Source of the DNA: Candidatus Abyssobacteria bacterium SURF_5
GTDB lineage: Bacteria > Abyssobacteria > SURF-5
NCBI GenBank assembly: GCA_003598085.1
Contig: QZKU01000051.1
Coordinates: forward strand, 1 to 38,635
Direction of reading: 5' to 3'
Length of the DNA: 38,635 bases
The first letter of the stretch is position 1; each line of letters begins with the position of its first letter. This document shows positions 16,822 to 38,515 of the stretch, in pieces. The position numbers were made by a program, and so were the translations under genes. Below the pieces are notes generated by a model. The model did not search any database. It was not told the origin of the DNA and worked only from the letters and a program-made list of their open reading frames with translations.

Positions 16822-19260
16822 TCAGCCGCAGCATGAGCCTTGGAAGCTCTGTTCGGTGCGCGCGATGATCTCATCCTGCATTTCCGGCGTCAGGTCGGCG
16901 AAATAGGCCGAGTAGCCGGAAACTCTCACGAGCAGGCCTGGATAGGCCTCCGGGTGTTTCTTCGCCTCGATCAGCGTTTGGCGATCCACCACATTGAACT
17001 GCACCTGCATTCCACCAAGCTCGAAGTAAGTGCGGATAAGCGAAGCGAGGTCGCGGCTCCCTTTTTCGCCGGCAAGCGCCGACGGCGGGAATTTCTGATT
17101 GAGGGCGCAACCGTTCCCGATGTGCTTCATTCCGAGCGAAACGACCGAACGCATTGCCGCCGTTGGTCCGTTTCGATCCGCGCCCGCCGACGGAGTGATT
17201 CCTTCGGCAAAAGTCGCCCCCGCTTTGCGTCCGTTCGGGAGCGCTCCCGTATACGAGCCGAATCCGTTGTGAGTGGTCATCGTCCAGAAGCCGGGAACAT
17301 ATCTGCCGCCGCGCGGATTGCGGTACCTGATGACTTCGTCGTGGTACATGCGGACGACTTTTCCGGCGAGGACATCGGCGTCGGGACTGCCATTTCCGAA
17401 CTTCGGCGCCTGGTTCCTTATCTGCTGGCGCAACCGCTCATTGCCGTCGAAATCGTCATCGAGCGACCCGAGCAACTGTTCCATTGTCAGCGTCTTGTCC
17501 CGGAAAACGAGCCTGTCGATGGCCGCAAGCGAATCAGCAACTTCGGCAAGTCCCACGCCCTGGATGCCTGTGCAATTGTACAAGGCGCCGCCGCGCGTGA
17601 CGTCGAGCCCGCTCTCCATGCAGCCGTCGATGAGAGCCGATAAGAGGGGGGTCGGATACATATGGATATGCGCAAGTTCGATTGCGTTATTGCCTGCTAC
17701 GGCATTGCGAACGAGGAAACCCGTCTGCTCGCGCAGGGCGGCGAGCACGTCGTCAATGGAGGTGAAGCCGCGCGCATCTCCGGTTTGCGGTCCGTTCCGG
17801 GCGTCGTTGAACCGGCTGAGGCCGTTGGTAAGCGCCATCTCGAGCGCCATGCCGAGGTTGACGAAAACGGCGCCGCACGCCGACATTGTTTTGCCGGGAA
17901 CGTTCGGCTCGACACAGCCCACGATCGAATAGTCCCAGACGTCCGCGCCATTGTCGTCCTGCAAAAGCAATCCCGGCTTGATCCCTTCATCACCGAAGAG
18001 GGCGGGCATACCGCCCCCTTTCTTGATCACTTCCGCCACCTTAACGAGAAATGCGTCGGGCGATTTCGGGTGCACGCGCACGTGCAGGTTGGGCTGGCGC
18101 AACCGGACTGCGTCGAATGCATCAAGGAAGATATAACTCAGCTCATTGGTGACGTCATTGCTGTCGCGATCGGTTCCGCCGAGAGTGATGCCCTGCGCGG
18201 ATGAGAGACCACTGAAGAATTTCGTGCCGACAGAATTGAACAGTGGAAGGATTTCCGCCGATTTCACGAGCATGCAGCCGATAAGCTCGACCGCTTCGTC
18301 GTACTCGAGCCGGCCGGCCTCGACGTCCGCTGCATAAAATGGATACAGTATCTGGTCGAGCCGCCCGAACGAGATTCCGTGCTGGAAATTCTCCTGGTGA
18401 ACGATAACATGAGCAAGCCACAACGATTGCACCGCCTCGCGGAAAGTGCGGGCCGGCATCGCGGGCACGCGTTCGAACACGCCGGCCATGTCGAGCAGTT
18501 CGCGTCTCCGCTCCTGATCGACGCACCCCTGCGCCAGCTCGAGCGCCTTTCGGCGATAGCGCTCGCCGAAAGCGGCCGCGGCAGTGCAGGTGATCTTCAC
18601 CGCCTCGTAGAAATGCAATTGTTGCAGCAGGTCGGGAGTCATTCCACCCGAAAGCTCTATCTCTTCCAGCCGCTTGATATGTGACTCGGCCTCCTCGACG
18701 ATTCCCAAAAAACCAAGCTTGAGCACCTTGTCGTAGGCCGGCGTGATATGCGAGATGCCCGCGAACTGCGTCAGAATGTAATATCCTATCTGCATGAACA
18801 TTTCCATCGGCTGTTCCGGACAGCAGAACTTGCCCGCATACGCTGCAATGCTCTTATCGGACCAGAACGGGAAGATTTCCTGTTCGAGAAGCCGGATTTC
18901 TTCGTCGGTGATCTGGAGCGGATTCGTCGGGCGCGTCCGCAGCTCATGGATTTCAGGCCACAGCAAGAGGCCTGACAGGTCGGGATGCAGCATCGCTGCT
19001 ATTCGATGCGTTGCGGGAGAACCGGCGACCAGTTCTTCGGGATGAATGATCACTTCCGCGTTGTGGAGGATATATTCGAGCGCGCGCGCGCGCCGAAGCA
19101 GTATCGGGGCGGCCTGGGCGTCCCTGGTCTTCATGTATTCGGTAACAAGGCGCGCTTTCTGGATGCAGACCGAATAAGGGGTCTGAAGCATTATTCCCCT
19201 GAGCGACTGAAGGCGGGCATGCACTTTATCTTTTGAGGTTTCCCGGGCTGTAACTGTCAT
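16822..19260 (-). CDS. Glycyl radical enzyme, GCVEP (dehydratase/lyase) type
   Basis: An 812-aa member of the pyruvate formate-lyase superfamily. The C-terminal glycyl radical site is RVSGY with G782, and the thiyl cysteine is C449 in G-C-V-E451-P. The Cys-x-Glu arrangement is typical of the eliminases (glycerol/diol dehydratase, choline lyase, hydroxyproline dehydratase, isethionate lyase), not of true formate-lyases, which have adjacent cysteines. The NCTGIQGVG segment is also usual. The substrate cannot be assigned. It needs a radical-SAM activase, and none with a CxxxCxxC motif is present in this window. The chain ends in an unusual SCCG tail. GAGGA lies 7 bp before the ATG. The thymidylate synthase-like gene follows downstream. 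Confidence 0.9.
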   Translation of the reverse strand: MTVTARETSKDKVHARLQSLRGIMLQTPYSVCIQKARLVTEYMKTRDAQAAPILLRRARALEYILHNAEVIIHPEELVAGSPATHRIAAMLHPDLSGLLLWPEIHELRTRPTNPLQITDEEIRLLEQEIFPFWSDKSIAAYAGKFCCPEQPMEMFMQIGYYILTQFAGISHITPAYDKVLKLGFLGIVEEAESHIKRLEEIELSGGMTPDLLQQLHFYEAVKITCTAAAAFGERYRRKALELAQGCVDQERRRELLDMAGVFERVPAMPARTFREAVQSLWLAHVIVHQENFQHGISFGRLDQILYPFYAADVEAGRLEYDEAVELIGCMLVKSAEILPLFNSVGTKFFSGLSSAQGITLGGTDRDSNDVTNELSYIFLDAFDAVRLRQPNLHVRVHPKSPDAFLVKVAEVIKKGGGMPALFGDEGIKPGLLLQDDNGADVWDYSIVGCVEPNVPGKTMSACGAVFVNLGMALEMALTNGLSRFNDARNGPQTGDARGFTSIDDVLAALREQTGFLVRNAVAGNNAIELAHIHMYPTPLLSALIDGCMESGLDVTRGGALYNCTGIQGVGLAEVADSLAAIDRLVFRDKTLTMEQLLGSLDDDFDGNERLRQQIRNQAPKFGNGSPDADVLAGKVVRMYHDEVIRYRNPRGGRYVPGFWTMTTHNGFGSYTGALPNGRKAGATFAEGITPSAGADRNGPTAAMRSVVSLGMKHIGNGCALNQKFPPSALAGEKGSRDLASLIRTYFELGGMQVQFNVVDRQTLIEAKKHPEAYPGLLVRVSGYSAYFADLTPEMQDEIIARTEQSFQGSCCG

Positions 19261-30473: not shown

Positions 30474-32618
30474 ATGAACAAATTGCATGATTTCAAGCTT
30501 TTCTGGGTAAGCCTTCTCCTCCTGTTCCTCGAGCTTCTCATCATCCGGTGGCTTTCGGCGGAGCTGAGGATTTTTGCTTATTTTCACAATCTGCTGTTGA
30601 TCATCTGTTTTCTGGGGATCGGTCTTGGGTGCGCGAGTCCCCGGAGAGAGCCTTCGATCGCGCTACCGCTCGCAATTCTGGGCGCGCTTGTTTTTTTGGT
30701 GTACTGTCCGTGGAGCCTGGGAATCTTTTCGTTGCCGAGAATAACGATGTACCTGGGCAATCTCAAGGACTTCATCATCTGGTATCAGGCAGTCTCGACT
30801 GGAATCGAGAAGACGTGGCAGCTATTGATTGGTATTGGAATGCTTTCCGCGCTGACGGTTGCGATCGTGTATCTGTTTGTTCCATTCGGGCAGTTGCTGG
30901 GGGAACTGCTGAGGACAAGCGAGCGCCCGCTGAGGGCGTATACGGTAAATATTTTCGGCAGTCTCGCGGGGGTAGCACTCTTCACGCTGCTCTCGTTGCT
31001 GTCGTACCCTCCGATTATCTGGTTTTCTCTGCTATTCGTCATGGTCATAGTTTTGCTGGTGGGTGAAGGACGGAGGAGTTCACTGCCAGCGTCGGTAGGA
31101 CTGATGATAGTGATTGGGGGCTTTTTGCTCGTGCACGACTATATTTCGGCGCGGGAGGAGCGCGAGGAGATCTGGTCGCCGTATCAGAAGTTGGAAGTTA
31201 AGCCGCTGGAGTATCCGGACGGAGCGAGTCTTGTGCGGGTAGGATACGTAATCAACGTCAACAGCGTCCCGTATCAGCAGGCGGTTAACTTATCCGATGA
31301 ATTTGTACGAAAAAACCCGCATATTTACGGCTTCAGCAGCGCTGAGATGCTGAAGTATGACCACTACAATCTGCCGTATCTGTTTGGGAAACAACTGGAT
31401 GAGGTTCTGATTGTCGGGGCGGGCACCGGGAATGACGTTGCGGGAGCACTGAGGAACGGAGCGCGACACGTGGACGCGGTTGAGATCGACCCGGTGATAA
31501 TTGATGTGGGCGAGCGGCTTCACCCGGAGCAACCGTATTCTTCCGAGCGGGTCACCAGGATAAACGATGATGCGCGCTCCTTTTTTCATCGGACCGGCAA
31601 GCGGTACGACCTGATTGTGTTCGGTCTGCTTGACTCGCATACGCTGTCCTCGAACCTTTCAAACGTACGACTCGATAATTTCGTGTACACGCTGCAAAGC
31701 ATTCAGGAGGCAAAAGGCCTGCTGAAGCCGGAAGGGGTGCTTGTTCTTATCTTTGACGTGAAGGACAATTTCATTGGACACAGCCTCTATGACATCATGA
31801 TGAAAGCGTTCGGCGGGCCGCCGGTCTGTTTTCGACTGAGCGATACGATTCGGGGCTGGGGCGGGAGCGTCTTCATAGGCGGGGACGCGTCCACTATCGC
31901 TCAGACAATGGCGAAGCATCCTTTTATGCAGAGTCTGATCGACCTCTCGTTCGCCGATGCGGCGACGGCAGCGGCCGTTCCGACAGATGACTGGCCGTAT
32001 CTGTATCTTGAGGGGCAGCGCATCCCATCTCTCTATTTCATTATTTTCGGGGTGTTGATGCTGATCTCGATCCTTCTGGTACGAAAGAGTTTCAGCGGAT
32101 TGAATGGAGTAAACTGGCATTTCTTTTTTCTTGGGGCGGGTTTTCTGTTGATCGAGGTACAGAACGTGAGCAAGCTGGCCCTGCTTTTCGGGGCGACGTG
32201 GATGGTGAATTCGATCATCATCTCAGGCATTATGATAATGATACTCATCGCGAATTATTATTGCGGGTTTGCGCGAATGAGGCCGCGCTGGGTTTATTAC
32301 CTGGGGCTGGGAATCTCGCTGTTGCTGATATACCAGATTCCGCTCGAGTATTTTGCCGGTGTTTCGCTCGTTCCCAAAGCGATTGTTTCGGGGGTGCTCC
32401 TATCTCTCCCGATTTTCTTTGCCGGTGTGATCTTTGCCGATTCGTTCCGCAGATCGAGCGAGCTGAACACGGTTTTCGGATCGAACCTGATCGGGGCGAT
32501 GTTTGGCGGCATGCTTGAATGTGCTTCGTTCGTCATTGGAATCAAGGCACTGCTTCTCGTCGCGCTGGTTCTGTACCTGCTTTCGTTTGCGGCTCTGGCT
32601 CGAAAGGCCGAAGTCTGA
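30474..32618 (+). CDS. Membrane-embedded spermidine-synthase-like methyltransferase-fold protein
   Basis: A 714-aa protein in three parts. Residues 8-225 form about seven hydrophobic helices. Residues 240-490 are a Rossmann-fold domain of the spermidine synthase type: the V-G-A-G-T-G-N-D nucleotide loop (314-321), the VEID acidic end (E337), and GLLDSHT with D387 where SpeE enzymes have their catalytic Asp. From about 515 to 710 there are six or seven more helices. Fused proteins of this type are widespread and mostly uncharacterised; polyamine synthesis is possible but not assured. A strong promoter precedes the gene, which stands alone on its strand until the small cysteine-rich gene 183 bp on. 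Confidence 0.82.
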   Translation: MNKLHDFKLFWVSLLLLFLELLIIRWLSAELRIFAYFHNLLLIICFLGIGLGCASPRREPSIALPLAILGALVFLVYCPWSLGIFSLPRITMYLGNLKDFIIWYQAVSTGIEKTWQLLIGIGMLSALTVAIVYLFVPFGQLLGELLRTSERPLRAYTVNIFGSLAGVALFTLLSLLSYPPIIWFSLLFVMVIVLLVGEGRRSSLPASVGLMIVIGGFLLVHDYISAREEREEIWSPYQKLEVKPLEYPDGASLVRVGYVINVNSVPYQQAVNLSDEFVRKNPHIYGFSSAEMLKYDHYNLPYLFGKQLDEVLIVGAGTGNDVAGALRNGARHVDAVEIDPVIIDVGERLHPEQPYSSERVTRINDDARSFFHRTGKRYDLIVFGLLDSHTLSSNLSNVRLDNFVYTLQSIQEAKGLLKPEGVLVLIFDVKDNFIGHSLYDIMMKAFGGPPVCFRLSDTIRGWGGSVFIGGDASTIAQTMAKHPFMQSLIDLSFADAATAAAVPTDDWPYLYLEGQRIPSLYFIIFGVLMLISILLVRKSFSGLNGVNWHFFFLGAGFLLIEVQNVSKLALLFGATWMVNSIIISGIMIMILIANYYCGFARMRPRWVYYLGLGISLLLIYQIPLEYFAGVSLVPKAIVSGVLLSLPIFFAGVIFADSFRRSSELNTVFGSNLIGAMFGGMLECASFVIGIKALLLVALVLYLLSFAALARKAEV

Positions 32619-33059: not shown

Positions 33060-33336
33060 AAAACCTGCCTGATTCAAGATCGTTTGGCTTTCAGGGCCGG
33101 ATCAGAAAATAAACCCGCATGGCGGTGAGACCGCGATTTGTGTGGAGAAGGCGTGATGCTGTTATTTGAATTGCGCTCTGTTTGGCTCGCCCCCGTAGAA
33201 CAACCTGCACCTTTAGCTGCAAGTGGAGACGCTGCAGAACAAGCTGTCATCGTTGTGCAAGAAGTTTTTCTTGAATGTTCATAAAGCGAATAGGACCGGC
33301 CTTGTACGGTTGGGAAAGACATACAAGGAGGAGAAC

Positions 33337-34623
33337 GTGAAGGCAAAAGAAGTTCTTGCCGTTGTATTAGCGGGGGGAGTAGGGACGCGCCTGTATCCGC
33401 TAACGCGGGACCGGGCAAAGCCGGCAGTCCCATTCGGGGGGATTTACCGGCTGATTGATTTTACGCTGAGCAACGCCATCAATTCAGATATCCGCAAGAT
33501 ATTCATTCTTTCGCAGTACAAGTCGCTCTCGCTTCACCGTCACATTCAGTTTGGCTGGAACATATTCAATCCCGTTCTCAATGAGTTTATCACGCTACTG
33601 CCGCCGCAACAGCGCATCAATGAGGAATGGTATACGGGGACAGCGTCGGCCGTGCATCAGAACCTGTATTCGATCCGCAAGGTGCATCCCCGTTACGTGC
33701 TCATCCTGTCGGCCGATCACGTGTATAAGATGGACTATTCAAAAATGGTCGAGTTCCATGAGGAAACCGGCGCCGACCTGACCGTGGGCGCTATTGACGT
33801 GCCGCTGAACGAGGCGCATCGTTTCGGGGTGCTATGCACGGACGGCAGCGGCCGCATCAATCGATTCATCGAGAAGCCGAAGAATCTTCAATCCTGCACG
33901 CCCAACGGCGGAGTGCTCGGGTCGATGGGTATTTACGTTTTTTCGACGGAAGTCCTGGCCGAGGTGCTGGAGCGCGGCGTGCGCGAAGGTGGTCAGGATT
34001 TTGGGAAAGACATAATCCCGATGATGCTCGATTCGCACCGCGTGCAGGCATATCCATTCGTTGACGAGAACAAGAAGCAGTCGAATTATTGGCGCGACGT
34101 GGGCACGATCGATTCGTACTGGGATTGCAACATGGACCTGGTGTCGGTTGACCCTGCCTTCAACCTGTACGATGTCAATTGGCCGATCAGGACCTATCAG
34201 GAACAATATCCGCCGGCCAAAACGGTGTTTGCCGGAGGCGACGATGGCAAGCGGATTGGTCTGGTGCTCGATTCCCTCGTTTCAAATGGCTGTATTATCA
34301 GCGGCGGCCGCGTGCAGCACAGCATCCTTTCTCCCGGAGTGAAAGTAAACAGCTATTCAGAAGTATACGATTCCATCCTGATGTCGGGCGTGCAGGTGGG
34401 GCGCCATGCGCGTATCCGGCGGGCAATCATCGACAAGCGCGTGATCATACCCCCCGGCACGGAAATTGGATACGATCTGGAAGAAGACCGCAAGCGGTTT
34501 TCGGTTTCGGAAAATGGCATTGTTGTCATTCCCAAGGGAACGATTCTCTCGCCGGTTCCTGTTATGGCCATGCCGATAAAACAGAAATCCGTTTCGGCGC
34601 ACAAGGCTGCTCCGCTTGTGTAG
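33337..34623 (+). CDS. glgC: Glucose-1-phosphate adenylyltransferase (ADP-glucose pyrophosphorylase)
   Basis: A 428-aa enzyme making ADP-glucose from glucose-1-phosphate and ATP, the first committed step of bacterial glycogen synthesis. The N-terminal nucleotidyltransferase domain shows LAGGVGTRLYPLT followed by RAKPAVPFGG, and the sugar site includes WYTGTA and the FIEKPK segment. A C-terminal beta-helix (about 300-428) binds allosteric effectors. The frame opens at ATG 33223, but AAGGAGGAG just before GTG 33337 and the family's usual start support the GTG. The length is normal. glgB lies convergently 1.6 kb away; glgA is not in the window. Confidence 0.93.
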   Translation: MKAKEVLAVVLAGGVGTRLYPLTRDRAKPAVPFGGIYRLIDFTLSNAINSDIRKIFILSQYKSLSLHRHIQFGWNIFNPVLNEFITLLPPQQRINEEWYTGTASAVHQNLYSIRKVHPRYVLILSADHVYKMDYSKMVEFHEETGADLTVGAIDVPLNEAHRFGVLCTDGSGRINRFIEKPKNLQSCTPNGGVLGSMGIYVFSTEVLAEVLERGVREGGQDFGKDIIPMMLDSHRVQAYPFVDENKKQSNYWRDVGTIDSYWDCNMDLVSVDPAFNLYDVNWPIRTYQEQYPPAKTVFAGGDDGKRIGLVLDSLVSNGCIISGGRVQHSILSPGVKVNSYSEVYDSILMSGVQVGRHARIRRAIIDKRVIIPPGTEIGYDLEEDRKRFSVSENGIVVIPKGTILSPVPVMAMPIKQKSVSAHKAAPLV

Positions 34624-34683: not shown

Positions 34684-36132
34684 TCATGATTGTGTGATGC
34701 GGGTTACTTCCACCCTCACATCGACCTTCGGCGGCCGTGGTCCAGCGTAGCGGGCGCCTGCAGGCAGAACGAGAGACGGCGTGACGGTAGTGGTTTCGGT
34801 CAACTTCCGCAGGTCTATGCTTTCCGTCGTCACCTTCAGGGATCCGTTAACCGCCTTACTCGGAATAAGCACGGGTATGGTATCCGGTGAGACTTCTGTC
34901 CGGGAGACTTTTAAACCTGCGGGAATCTTCCCGTGAGTTCGCACATGAACGGGGAGATTCGCCTGAACGAGTTGGTAGGCGGCGACCCGTATTTTTTTGG
35001 GCTCGATATCGATGACGGACAAGCTGGAAGGGCTTGTCACGGAATTGGCGGTAAGCATAATGTCCTGATGCCCCTGCTCAATATCCTCCATATCGACGAC
35101 GACCTTCAGCGCGCGCATATCCACCAGGTCGAATGCTCGGGTTCTTCCGGCGAGGCTGATCATGACTTCTTTGGGCATTGGCTCCTCGATGACCCAATTG
35201 GCCTTCAGATTTCGGTATTCGACAGGGACAACAAAATCGCGGCGAACAGTGCCCGTCTGGTAGATAAAAACGAACCAAAGGACGCATGCCAGGACAACGG
35301 CGATTGCTTTTTCTTTCGATTTTTCTCTGATCCACTGGAGCCAGGTCCGATGGTTTTTCGGAAATTTATCCAGGGCGAACTTTTCCAGTTCCGCCTGGAG
35401 TGTCAATGGATCCGTCAACTCGACGAGGCGTTCCTCTTTTGCCAATGAGATCGTGCCGCGCTCTTCGGAGACGACGATAACGAGCGCATCCGAGCGTTCG
35501 GCGAGGCCGAGGGCGGCGCTATGGCGTGTGCCGCGCATTCCGAGGGCTTGTATGTTGCTCGAAAGCGGCAGATGGCAGGCGAATCGTGATAGCCGGCCGT
35601 GGTCGATAATCACGGCGCCGTCATGTCCGAACGAATGCGGGTCGAACAGGCTCTCCAGAAGAGGCTGGCTCAAACGGCCGTCCAGTTCATATCCTCCTTC
35701 CAGATGCCGGTCGAGGGGGTCGGTTCCTCGAATGACGACGAGCGCTCCTATTTTCTTGCGGGCAAGTTCGTTCATTGTGCGGGAAATGATTTCTATTTCG
35801 GGGTAGCCGGAAAAGACATTGTTACCTTTTCGCAAGGAACTCCACATGCTGATTCGCTCGAAAAACCTTCTCAGCTCCTCCTGGAATATGACGACAAGGG
35901 AGATCAAGAGGATGGCGAAAAACGCTTGTAAAACCACCGCGGTCAGGTACATATTGAACAGGCGCGCCAGGATGTAGATGACGCCGAGAATGAAGATTCC
36001 GAGCAGGACGAACCTGGATGCCGTCGCTTCGAACCAGATCACGACGAGATAGATAAGTATCGAGATGATGGATATGTCAAGGAAATCGGTGAATCTGAAG
36101 CTGTCGATGAGTTGAAAAAGGAATTCGGCCAT
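34684..36132 (-). CDS. Diadenylate cyclase (CdaA-type) fused to YbbR (CdaR-type) domains
   Basis: A 482-aa membrane protein that should make the second messenger c-di-AMP from two ATP. Residues 20-85 hold three transmembrane helices as in CdaA. The DAC catalytic domain (about 105-235) has the D171-G-A motif and GT-R203-H204-S205, where most enzymes have RHR. After a linker, a fourth helix (277-291) leads to YbbR-type repeats (about 297-390 and 395-480), which should lie outside the membrane. In Firmicutes, CdaA and its YbbR regulator CdaR are separate adjacent genes; here both are one chain. It starts 53 bp after the glgB stop on the same strand and may be co-transcribed. AGAGGA lies about 12 bp before the ATG. 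Confidence 0.87.
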   Translation of the reverse strand: MAEFLFQLIDSFRFTDFLDISIISILIYLVVIWFEATASRFVLLGIFILGVIYILARLFNMYLTAVVLQAFFAILLISLVVIFQEELRRFFERISMWSSLRKGNNVFSGYPEIEIISRTMNELARKKIGALVVIRGTDPLDRHLEGGYELDGRLSQPLLESLFDPHSFGHDGAVIIDHGRLSRFACHLPLSSNIQALGMRGTRHSAALGLAERSDALVIVVSEERGTISLAKEERLVELTDPLTLQAELEKFALDKFPKNHRTWLQWIREKSKEKAIAVVLACVLWFVFIYQTGTVRRDFVVPVEYRNLKANWVIEEPMPKEVMISLAGRTRAFDLVDMRALKVVVDMEDIEQGHQDIMLTANSVTSPSSLSVIDIEPKKIRVAAYQLVQANLPVHVRTHGKIPAGLKVSRTEVSPDTIPVLIPSKAVNGSLKVTTESIDLRKLTETTTVTPSLVLPAGARYAGPRPPKVDVRVEVTRITQS

Positions 36133-36185: not shown

Positions 36186-38450
36186 TCAGCAGAGATTAAG
36201 TTGCTGTTTTTGAATCTTCTCCGTCCGTTGATTGTCGAAGCTTTGATCAATCGGTTCCAGAATCAAGCATCCAAGTGGAGGGAGTGTAAGCGAGAGCGAC
36301 TGAGCAAAGCCATGGAAAGGTTGCGGCACGGCATTCAGTATGCCCCAGTTGCCGACGTTGCCGCCCCCGTACAGGTCTGAATCGGTATTCAGTATTTCCT
36401 TGTATGCTCTTGCCTCAGGCACTCCGATATGGTAATCATAGCGAACCACGGGCGTAAAATTGCATGCACAGACGAGGTAGGATGTGTCGCTTGACCGGAT
36501 GTAGGAGACAACGGACTGCGCGCTGTCGTCACAGGTGATCCATAAGAACCCACGTGGGTCATGATCGCGCTCCCACAGAGTCGGCTCGCTGCGGTACAGT
36601 GCGAGCAGGTCCCTCAAGAAGAATTGGAACTGTTGCCGCAGCGGGTCCTTCGGCAAATCCCAATCGAGTCCGAAATCATGGCTCCACTCGTAGTCGGGAG
36701 CAAGCTCAGTCCCCATAAACAGCAATTTTTTACCCGGGTGAGTGAACATGTATGCCAGCAAGAGTCTCAGGTTGGCAAACTGCTGCCAGCGGTCGCCCGG
36801 CATCTTTCGAAGAAGCGAGCCTTTCCCGTGGACGACCTCGTCATGAGAAAGGGGGAGAACGAAGTTTTCGCTATAGGCATAGAGCATCGAGAACGTCAAC
36901 GTATTGTGATGGTATTTGCGGTGAACGGGGTCTTTGCTGAAATATTGCAGCGTATCATGCATCCACCCCATATTCCATTTGAAACCGAACCCGAGCCCGC
37001 CGTGGTACTTGGGGGAAGTGACGCCCGCATAGTCGGTGGATTCTTCGGCGATGGTAAAGCAGCCCGGGAACTGGGCATAGACGGCCTCGTTCATGAGTTG
37101 CAGGAATTCGATTGCTTCGAGATTTTCTTTCCCGCCGTATCGGTTAGGAATCCACTCGCCGTCATTCCTGCTGTAGTCGAGATAGATCATGGAAGCCACG
37201 GCATCCACCCGCAGAGCGTCGATATGATATTGATCCAGCCAGAAAAGCGCGTTCGCCAGCAGAAAGTTTCGCACTTCATTGCGCCCGAGATTGAAGATAA
37301 GCGTGCCCCAGTCCTTGTGCTCAGCCTGGCGAGGGTCGAAATGTTCGTATAAAGCGGTTCCGTCGAACCACCGCAGCGAATAGTCGTCCTTGGGGAAATG
37401 AGCGGGAACCCAATCGAGGATGACTCCAATTTCATTTTGATGACATTGGTCGACGAAGTACTTGAAATCGTCCGGCGTTCCGAAACGGGCGGTTGGCGCA
37501 AAATAGCCGGTTACCTGGTATCCCCATGAGCCGTCGAACGGATGCTCGGCGATCGGCAGGAGCTCGATATGGGTGAAGCCGAGTTCCCGCACGTGTTTTA
37601 CCAGCTTATCCGCCAGGTCGCGGTACGTGAGCCAGCGGGTTGGAGATTGTGCAGGTCTGAGCCAGGAACCCAGATGCACTTCGTAAATCGCCATTGGGGA
37701 GCGTCGCAGGTCTTTTGACTGCCGCGTCTTCAGCCATTCGGAATCGTGCCACTGATACCGCTCCATATCCCAGACGATGGAAGCGGTTTTCGGCGGAGCT
37801 TCCATGGCAAATGCGCACGGGTCCGTTTTTACCCGAATATGGCCGTCGGCGGTTTTTATTTCGTATTTGTACAAGATGCCGGCGTCCATGTCGGGGACGA
37901 ACAATTCCCAGACGCCGGAGCTGCCGATCGTTCTCATGGGATAGAGACGCCCGTCCCATCCGTTAAATTCACCGATGATGCTGACTCTTTTCGCCGCGGG
38001 CGCCCAGACGGCAAAGGCGACTCCTTTTCGGCCATTCTGCACGCAGGGGTGAGCACCGAGCCGCTGATAGAGGCGGCGGTGACTTCCTTCTCCCAGGAGA
38101 TACACATCCATATCTCCGAGCGTCGGCAGGTATGCGTACGGGTCTCGCCGCTCCCAGGTTTCGCCATTGGAAAATGTAAAAGTCAGCCTGTAATCGAAGG
38201 GCAGGGTCTCATTCATGAGCGCGGCCGCAAACAGGCCGCCGGGATGAATTCGAGTCATCCGCACTGTTGCGCGGTCACTCTGCAGGTCCACTTGCACGGC
38301 ATCGGGGTGGAAGGCGCGGACAACCACTCCTTGAGCGGGATGCTTCAGCGGGTGGGCGCCCAAGATGGCGTGGGGATTACTGAATTCGCCGTTTAACAGC
38401 CGCTCGATATCCTGAGTCTTTGGCTGGATCAGTAGGTTCTCGGTCTCCAT
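36186..38450 (-). CDS. glgB: 1,4-alpha-glucan branching enzyme
   Basis: A 754-aa GH13 enzyme that introduces alpha-1,6 branches into glycogen. An N-terminal carbohydrate-binding region (about 15-110), a CBM48 domain (about 140-220, with [18 protein letters not shown]) and the catalytic barrel are in the usual order. The nucleophile is D416 (ALRVDAV), the acid/base is E469 (TIAEES), and the third Asp is in [13 protein letters not shown]. The frame opens 17 codons upstream at a GTG (38501), but the family start and the promoter-like TATAAG at 38487-38492 favour ATG 38450. There is no strong ribosome site. The diadenylate cyclase gene follows downstream. Confidence 0.94.
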
Positions 38451-38486
38451 AAACGATAATGGACATGGTGGAATGGTAACGGCTAC

Positions 38487-38515
38487 CTTATAGGATACCA
38501 CAAAAAAGGCGATAA
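38487..38515 (-). promoter_or_regulatory. Possible promoter of glgB
   Basis: On the minus strand, TTATCG (38510-38515), a 17-bp spacer and TATAAG (38487-38492). The -35 is weak. If real, the transcript starts near 38480, downstream of the GTG at 38501, supporting ATG 38450. Confidence 0.35.

Follow-up and report, generated by a model that had tools for sequence, protein, structure and literature searches.

A single gene of Candidatus Abyssobacteria bacterium SURF_5 encodes a predicted CdaA-type diadenylate cyclase and a CdaR-like YbbR regulator in one chain. In most bacteria, the YbbR domains belong to a regulator protein of its own. The 482 amino acids comprise, in this order, a CdaA_N region with three transmembrane (TM) helices, the DAC domain, a fourth TM helix and two YbbR domains. 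The product is probably a membrane-bound cyclase with its regulator covalently attached through the fourth helix, and with an output in osmotic, ion and storage-glucan balance. The window, by which we mean the whole stretch of DNA that was analysed (38,635 nucleotides), is an entire contig of a 5.1 Mb genome that is 98.5% complete. The features discussed below are as follows.

34684..36132, minus strand: fused CdaA-type diadenylate cyclase / YbbR gene (ORF, Pfam, full-length relatives)
36025..36093, minus strand: TM1, residues 14-36, within CdaA_N (AlphaFold2, hydropathy, Pfam CdaA_N 11-87)
35959..36015, minus strand: TM2, residues 40-58 (AlphaFold2, hydropathy)
35887..35949, minus strand: TM3, residues 62-82 (AlphaFold2, hydropathy)
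35428..35778, minus strand: DAC catalytic domain, residues 119-235 (Pfam, Foldseek)
35614..35622, minus strand: active-site motif D171-G172-A173, in the clade context S-x-G-H-D-G-A (sequence, alignment)
35512..35532, minus strand: G201-T-R-H-S-A-A207, equivalent to GxRHRxA with the last Arg replaced by Ser205 (alignment)
35257..35319, minus strand: TM4, residues 272-292, joining the cytoplasmic DAC domain to the predicted extracytoplasmic part (AlphaFold2, hydropathy)
34957..35250, minus strand: YbbR domain 1, residues 295-392 (profile match to the CdaR structure 5hqh, Foldseek)
34714..34953, minus strand: YbbR domain 2, residues 394-473, absent from SURF_17 and L042 (Pfam, Foldseek, alignments)
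36186..38501, minus strand: glgB, on the same strand as the fusion and upstream of it, with a 53 bp gap (NCBIfam)
33223..34623, plus strand: glgC, the downstream neighbour, convergent with the fusion (NCBIfam)

An earlier note on this DNA, made from the letters alone, had located the gene correctly. It lies on the minus strand, as 482 uninterrupted codons followed by a stop; the plus-strand reading of the same interval was rejected, as there are stops all through the frame. The note had also considered that a frameshift might hide two separate genes. No such frameshift was seen. The G+C content by codon position stays coding-like across the CdaA-YbbR junction, and intact copies in one frame are present in independent MAGs, among them a full-length one that is 58% identical to the window fusion. 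We therefore exclude an assembly or frameshift artefact that joined two genes, the chance of which is negligible.

In Pfam, CdaA_N (PF19293) matches residues 11-87 with 31 bits (cut-off 23.8), and it is matched at an E-value of up to 0.001 in all 29 aligned clade members. The DAC domain reaches 120 bits against a cut-off of 27, and contains the DGA motif with the preceding His that is typical of CdaA (H170-D171-G172-A173). The NCBIfam equivalog model for CdaA (TIGR00159) gives 178.3 bits, below its cut-off of 188.8, and the GxRHRxA signature of CdaA is not matched, since the window protein reads GTRHSAA. Scores for the NCBIfam models of the other DAC classes (DisA, CdaS, CdaM, DacZ) are far under their cut-offs.

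YbbR (PF07949) scores 43 bits in total against a cut-off of 22.3, with the best stretch in the second domain. The other outcome that the note had named as a refutation, a YbbR profile that misses residues 297-480, therefore did not arise. The first domain is weak in Pfam, and its assignment comes from Foldseek and from a match of the clade profile (positions 304-399) to the Listeria CdaR domain 5hqh at 4e-6. Searching PDB sequences with the YbbR part as a single sequence gave a chance match only, so that profiles and a fold search were needed. A profile built from the two-YbbR type alone reached at best 2l3u, at 0.03. The one-YbbR type, often missed by Pfam, matches 5hqh as a profile at 2e-6.

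The AlphaFold2 model of the full chain, built from 29 sequences, has a mean pLDDT of 86.8. It contains helices at residues 14-36, 40-58, 62-82 and 272-292, a DAC fold and, beyond TM4, two beta domains. In a Foldseek search of the PDB it retrieves CdaA/DacA of B. subtilis, Listeria and S. aureus, mostly with TM-scores of 0.8-0.9 over the target. The YbbR part, modelled alone with a pLDDT of 92.8, has YbbR/CdaR structures on top (4qdy and 2kxy, then 5hqh, 3lyw and 2kpu); ribosomal chains of the L25/TL5 type are scattered among the matches, with a poorer global fit. Pfam, PDB profile matches and AlphaFold2/Foldseek thus concur on a CdaA_N-DAC-TM-YbbR fusion, as the earlier note had read it from the translation.

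The stretch before TM4 carries five Lys or Arg and one Asp or Glu, and these charges, like those after TM3, fit the positive-inside rule. Together with the model they place the YbbR part across the membrane from the DAC domain, as had been anticipated. The predicted topology is a cytoplasmic DAC domain and an extracytoplasmic YbbR part, preceded by a single TM helix.

This architecture suggests how the protein may work. Paired DAC domains join two ATP molecules into c-di-AMP. In the fusion, the three N-terminal helices would hold the DAC domain in the cytoplasm, and TM4 would place both YbbR domains in the periplasm. An envelope signal, such as turgor, the state of the cell wall or osmolarity, could then alter the packing of TM4 on the CdaA helices, and hence the pairing of the DAC domains. 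Covalently joined, sensor and enzyme would not separate, and TM4 would relay changes that arise in the YbbR domains.

Of the three DAC proteins encoded in the window genome, one is the fusion; the others are a true DisA (425 bits, cut-off 201) and a short DacZ-like protein of 204 residues with a GSRHVAA motif, which scores below its cut-off. The genes of the latter two are L002 (G000:C115) and L003 (G000:C122). The fusion is the sole CdaA-type cyclase in the genome. It is also the only YbbR gene, as no separate CdaR/YbbR gene was found elsewhere in the genome, and the fixed one-to-one ratio of enzyme and regulator that the earlier note proposed is therefore plausible. A search of the window genome for the c-di-AMP riboswitch RF00379 gave no match.

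The fusion is not a peculiarity of one genome. When 84,980 named genomes were scanned by motif, it turned up in MAGs of the Desulfobacterota/Deltaproteobacteria, Myxococcota, Omnitrophota, Elusimicrobia, Nitrospirota, Planctomycetota and Verrucomicrobiota. Most of the lineage belongs to phyla that have been little studied and are known from MAGs. The scan gave intact single-frame fusions in 28 relatives besides the window; the L045 fusion is frameshifted, and those of L061 and L063 are cut by contig ends. A second, profile-based survey of 386 genomes, independent of the motifs used in the scan, found single-frame fusions in each of the three genomes that represent the window's family and in 10 of the 383 others, the latter divided equally between the RH[STA] type (five) and the RHR type (five) described below. 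Both sister genera have the fusion. In SURF_17, a Candidatus Abyssobacteria MAG from one of them, the second YbbR domain was lost or never present, and within the clade the number of YbbR copies is one or two. A viral collection yielded 89 stretches that matched a pattern, none of which encodes a relative.

Some members are unusual. A two-YbbR fusion (L043) is found in a 0.9 Mb CPR-type Candidatus Liptonbacteria bin, beside a cysteinyl-tRNA synthetase gene, and may reflect transfer or misbinning. The fused cyclase at L108 1498-3189 (G127) has about 180 extra residues ahead of CdaA_N, in which there is no Pfam domain. In an Omnitrophota genome (G074), a 454-residue DAC protein without the DGA motif (L083 444-1805) sits on a very long branch, and may be a cyclase that has degenerated or been repurposed. 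This genome also carries a classical CdaA-CdaR pair and two fusions.

In a number of genomes (two Nitrospiraceae, Omnitrophota and two Myxococcota) an ordinary cdaA-cdaR pair is present alongside the fusion, and in others, such as that of the window, the fusion is the lone CdaA-type cyclase. The coexistence indicates a separate lineage, and not simply a local pair that has been joined. An unrooted tree of 41 fusions and 53 separate CdaA proteins was calculated from the columns of CdaA_N and DAC after removal of the diagnostic ones. All 41 sampled fusions fall on one side of a branch that parts them from the 53 separate proteins (support 98/90), and 35 of them, including that of the window, form a subclade with support of 100/98. 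A single origin of the fused lineage is the best reading of this tree, which has long branches, a limited sample and no root. Several independent fusion events, which the RHR-type fusions might suggest, are not claimed, because the tree groups all 41, with the long branches as a caution.

A rival reading is a recent chance fusion of adjacent cdaA and cdaR genes by loss of a stop codon. The separate genes are commonly adjacent, often with one in-frame stop between them, and fusions at the level of strains have been reported (PMC10243994), perhaps of this kind in single streptococcal strains. However, the fusion is shared by every genome of the family, three in number, and by members in many phyla, it forms one group in the tree (98/90), and the fused clade has an active-site signature of its own. 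A chance event is thus refuted, unless the grouping is a long-branch artefact, and we regard it as very improbable.

The signature, which the earlier note overlooked, affects two motifs. In all 35 subclade members GxRHRxA has become GxRH[S/T/A]xA, whereas Arg stands at this position in 51 of the 53 separate CdaA proteins, with Lys or Gln in the remaining two. In nearly all subclade members, PLHDGA has in addition become xGHDGA. The loss of the Arg, and the presence of a classical CdaA pair in several of the genomes, might indicate a pseudo-enzyme, or an enzyme with another product, that serves as a receptor for c-di-AMP or ATP. Against an active cyclase there is also the DisA ortholog of M. 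tuberculosis, in which activity was killed when the whole of RHR was changed to AAA (PMC3328451), a broader change than that of the fusions. We consider a pseudo-enzyme or altered enzyme rather improbable. The D, G and A of the DGA motif, R203, H204, S222, E223 and E224 are invariant among the 31 fusions compared, with D171, R203 and S222 kept in 31 of 31 in the first tree set. In Leptospira CdaA, replacing the residues that correspond to D171 and R203 by Ala abolished activity, and replacing the one that corresponds to S222 reduced it (PMC12974146). Moreover, the window genome has no classical CdaA that could compensate, its DacZ-like DAC protein likewise lacks the Arg (RHV), and many members have a phosphodiesterase encoded next to the fusion. 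From these conserved residues, the fusion is expected to be an active enzyme.

The phosphodiesterase is part of a recurrent gene context, which we surveyed by scanning the immediate neighbours with Pfam and locating them by phmmer. An NrnA/DhhP-type DHH phosphodiesterase adjoins 10 named fusions, often with overlapping gene ends; Rv2837c is among its PDB matches, as is a cyclic-dinucleotide phosphodiesterase. The window genome encodes its nearest relative of this operon DHH protein on another contig (L134). MgtE with CBS domains, a Mg2+ channel, adjoins or shares a gene run with about nine named fusions. Enzymes with a CBM_48 domain are found near the fusion not only in the window but also in L035 and L053 (GlgB), L048 (GlgX), and L052 and L060 (TreZ). 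A CBM_48 gene lies within about 4.5 kb of 5 of 27 fusions, against 0.24 expected from the per-genome counts of CBM_48 genes (P about 2.5e-6); if the window's own relative is left out, the figure is 4 of 26 (P about 7e-5). Both P values treat genomes as independent, which overstates significance.

From the proximity of glgB, the earlier note had suggested a link with carbon storage. This holds in part. GlgB, GlgX and TreZ are enriched beside the fusions of the clade, and in a sister genome (L035) glgB overlaps the fusion gene by 4 bp. However, the DHH phosphodiesterase and MgtE are commoner neighbours than CBM_48 enzymes, and neither SURF_17 nor the deltaproteobacterial members have glgB next to the fusion. 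In the surroundings of the window fusion there is also a gene for a 714-residue membrane protein with a spermidine-synthase-like domain (window 30474-32618; L036 5237-7387), conserved across two genera and convergent to the fusion in SURF_17. Further away, at 16822-19260, an 812-residue protein has, by eye, the C-terminal sequence RVSGYSAYF as in glycyl radical enzymes.

Longer runs occur in a Nitrospirota bin (L052), with DHH phosphodiesterase, fusion, MgtE and TreZ on one strand, and in Omnitrophota (L053), with a GGDEF (diguanylate cyclase) gene, fusion, MgtE and GlgB on one strand. Both are candidate c-di-AMP modules. Neighbours of these kinds make osmotic, ion and storage-glucan balance the likely output of the fusion. 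It is conceivable, and we put it forward tentatively, that the fusions are an undescribed old sensor-cyclase lineage, with an active-site loop rebuilt after the fusion, at the core of a c-di-AMP module composed of the DHH phosphodiesterase, MgtE and an alpha-glucan or trehalose output enzyme. If so, such a module would tie the state of the envelope, or osmotic state, to Mg2+ and to storage or compatible-solute sugar. The wide lineage, the motif change and the operons appear undescribed in the literature searched, the main review of DAC architectures lying outside that search.

The role of the YbbR part leaves some room for doubt. We know of no YbbR domain with a known ligand, and the change from one to two copies in the clade, even between sister genera, may mean that precise sensing is not needed. 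The part could thus be a structural tether for cell-wall anchoring or oligomer stability, with output set by the phosphodiesterase or by cytoplasmic partners such as GlmM, which acts by way of the cytoplasmic domain to inhibit free CdaA (PMC8573169). The glmM family, however, is absent from the 25 neighbour families listed in each tally. In addition, c-di-AMP levels respond to free CdaR in S. aureus (PMC11520302), P. gingivalis (PMC9259658) and Chlamydia (PMC12422730), so that a mere tether seems unlikely, if less so than a pseudo-enzyme. In the preferred reading, a regulatory YbbR part, control could run in either direction. In Chlamydia, YbbR activates DacA and its level is limiting (PMC12422730), whereas CdaR acts negatively both in P. 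gingivalis (PMC9259658) and in S. aureus (PMC11520302).

Among known systems, the fusion is closest to the CdaA (DacA)-CdaR (YbbR) operon of Firmicutes and others, with the same CdaA_N, DAC and YbbR domains and the same expected topology. In that system, free CdaR contacts the membrane helices of CdaA (PMC8573169, PMC10243994), and the mechanism of control has been stated to be unclear (PMC8573169). The fusion differs in being one polypeptide, in the absence of glmM from the neighbour families listed, and in having one or two YbbR domains; in lactic acid bacteria, CdaR is reported to have three or four. Its subclade has RH[STA] and GHDGA in place of the RHR and PLHDGA of CdaA. The DisA, CdaS, CdaM and DacZ classes share the DAC domain, with partner domains that differ from those of the fusion.

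A CdaA-CdaR fusion as such is not new. Some streptococcal strains have CdaA likewise joined to CdaR in one chain (UniProt A5LQF8, E1M7C3, V8IIN0) (PMC10243994). By their description, these are particular strains, in a genus where two genes are the rule, in contrast to the old multi-phylum lineage reported here. The gene context makes biological sense in the light of Synechocystis, where c-di-AMP acts on GlgB via SbtB, and where affinity chromatography picked up MgtE as one of several putative c-di-AMP receptors (PMC10117731). There the tie to GlgB runs through SbtB, whereas for the fusions the tie shown is gene adjacency. With respect to the classical pair, a natural fusion removes the stoichiometry problem and offers a single chain for structure and assay, which should make it simpler to test how the extracytoplasmic part governs the cyclase. 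The fused operons, in turn, point to a matched phosphodiesterase and to MgtE and GlgB/GlgX/TreZ as concrete outputs.
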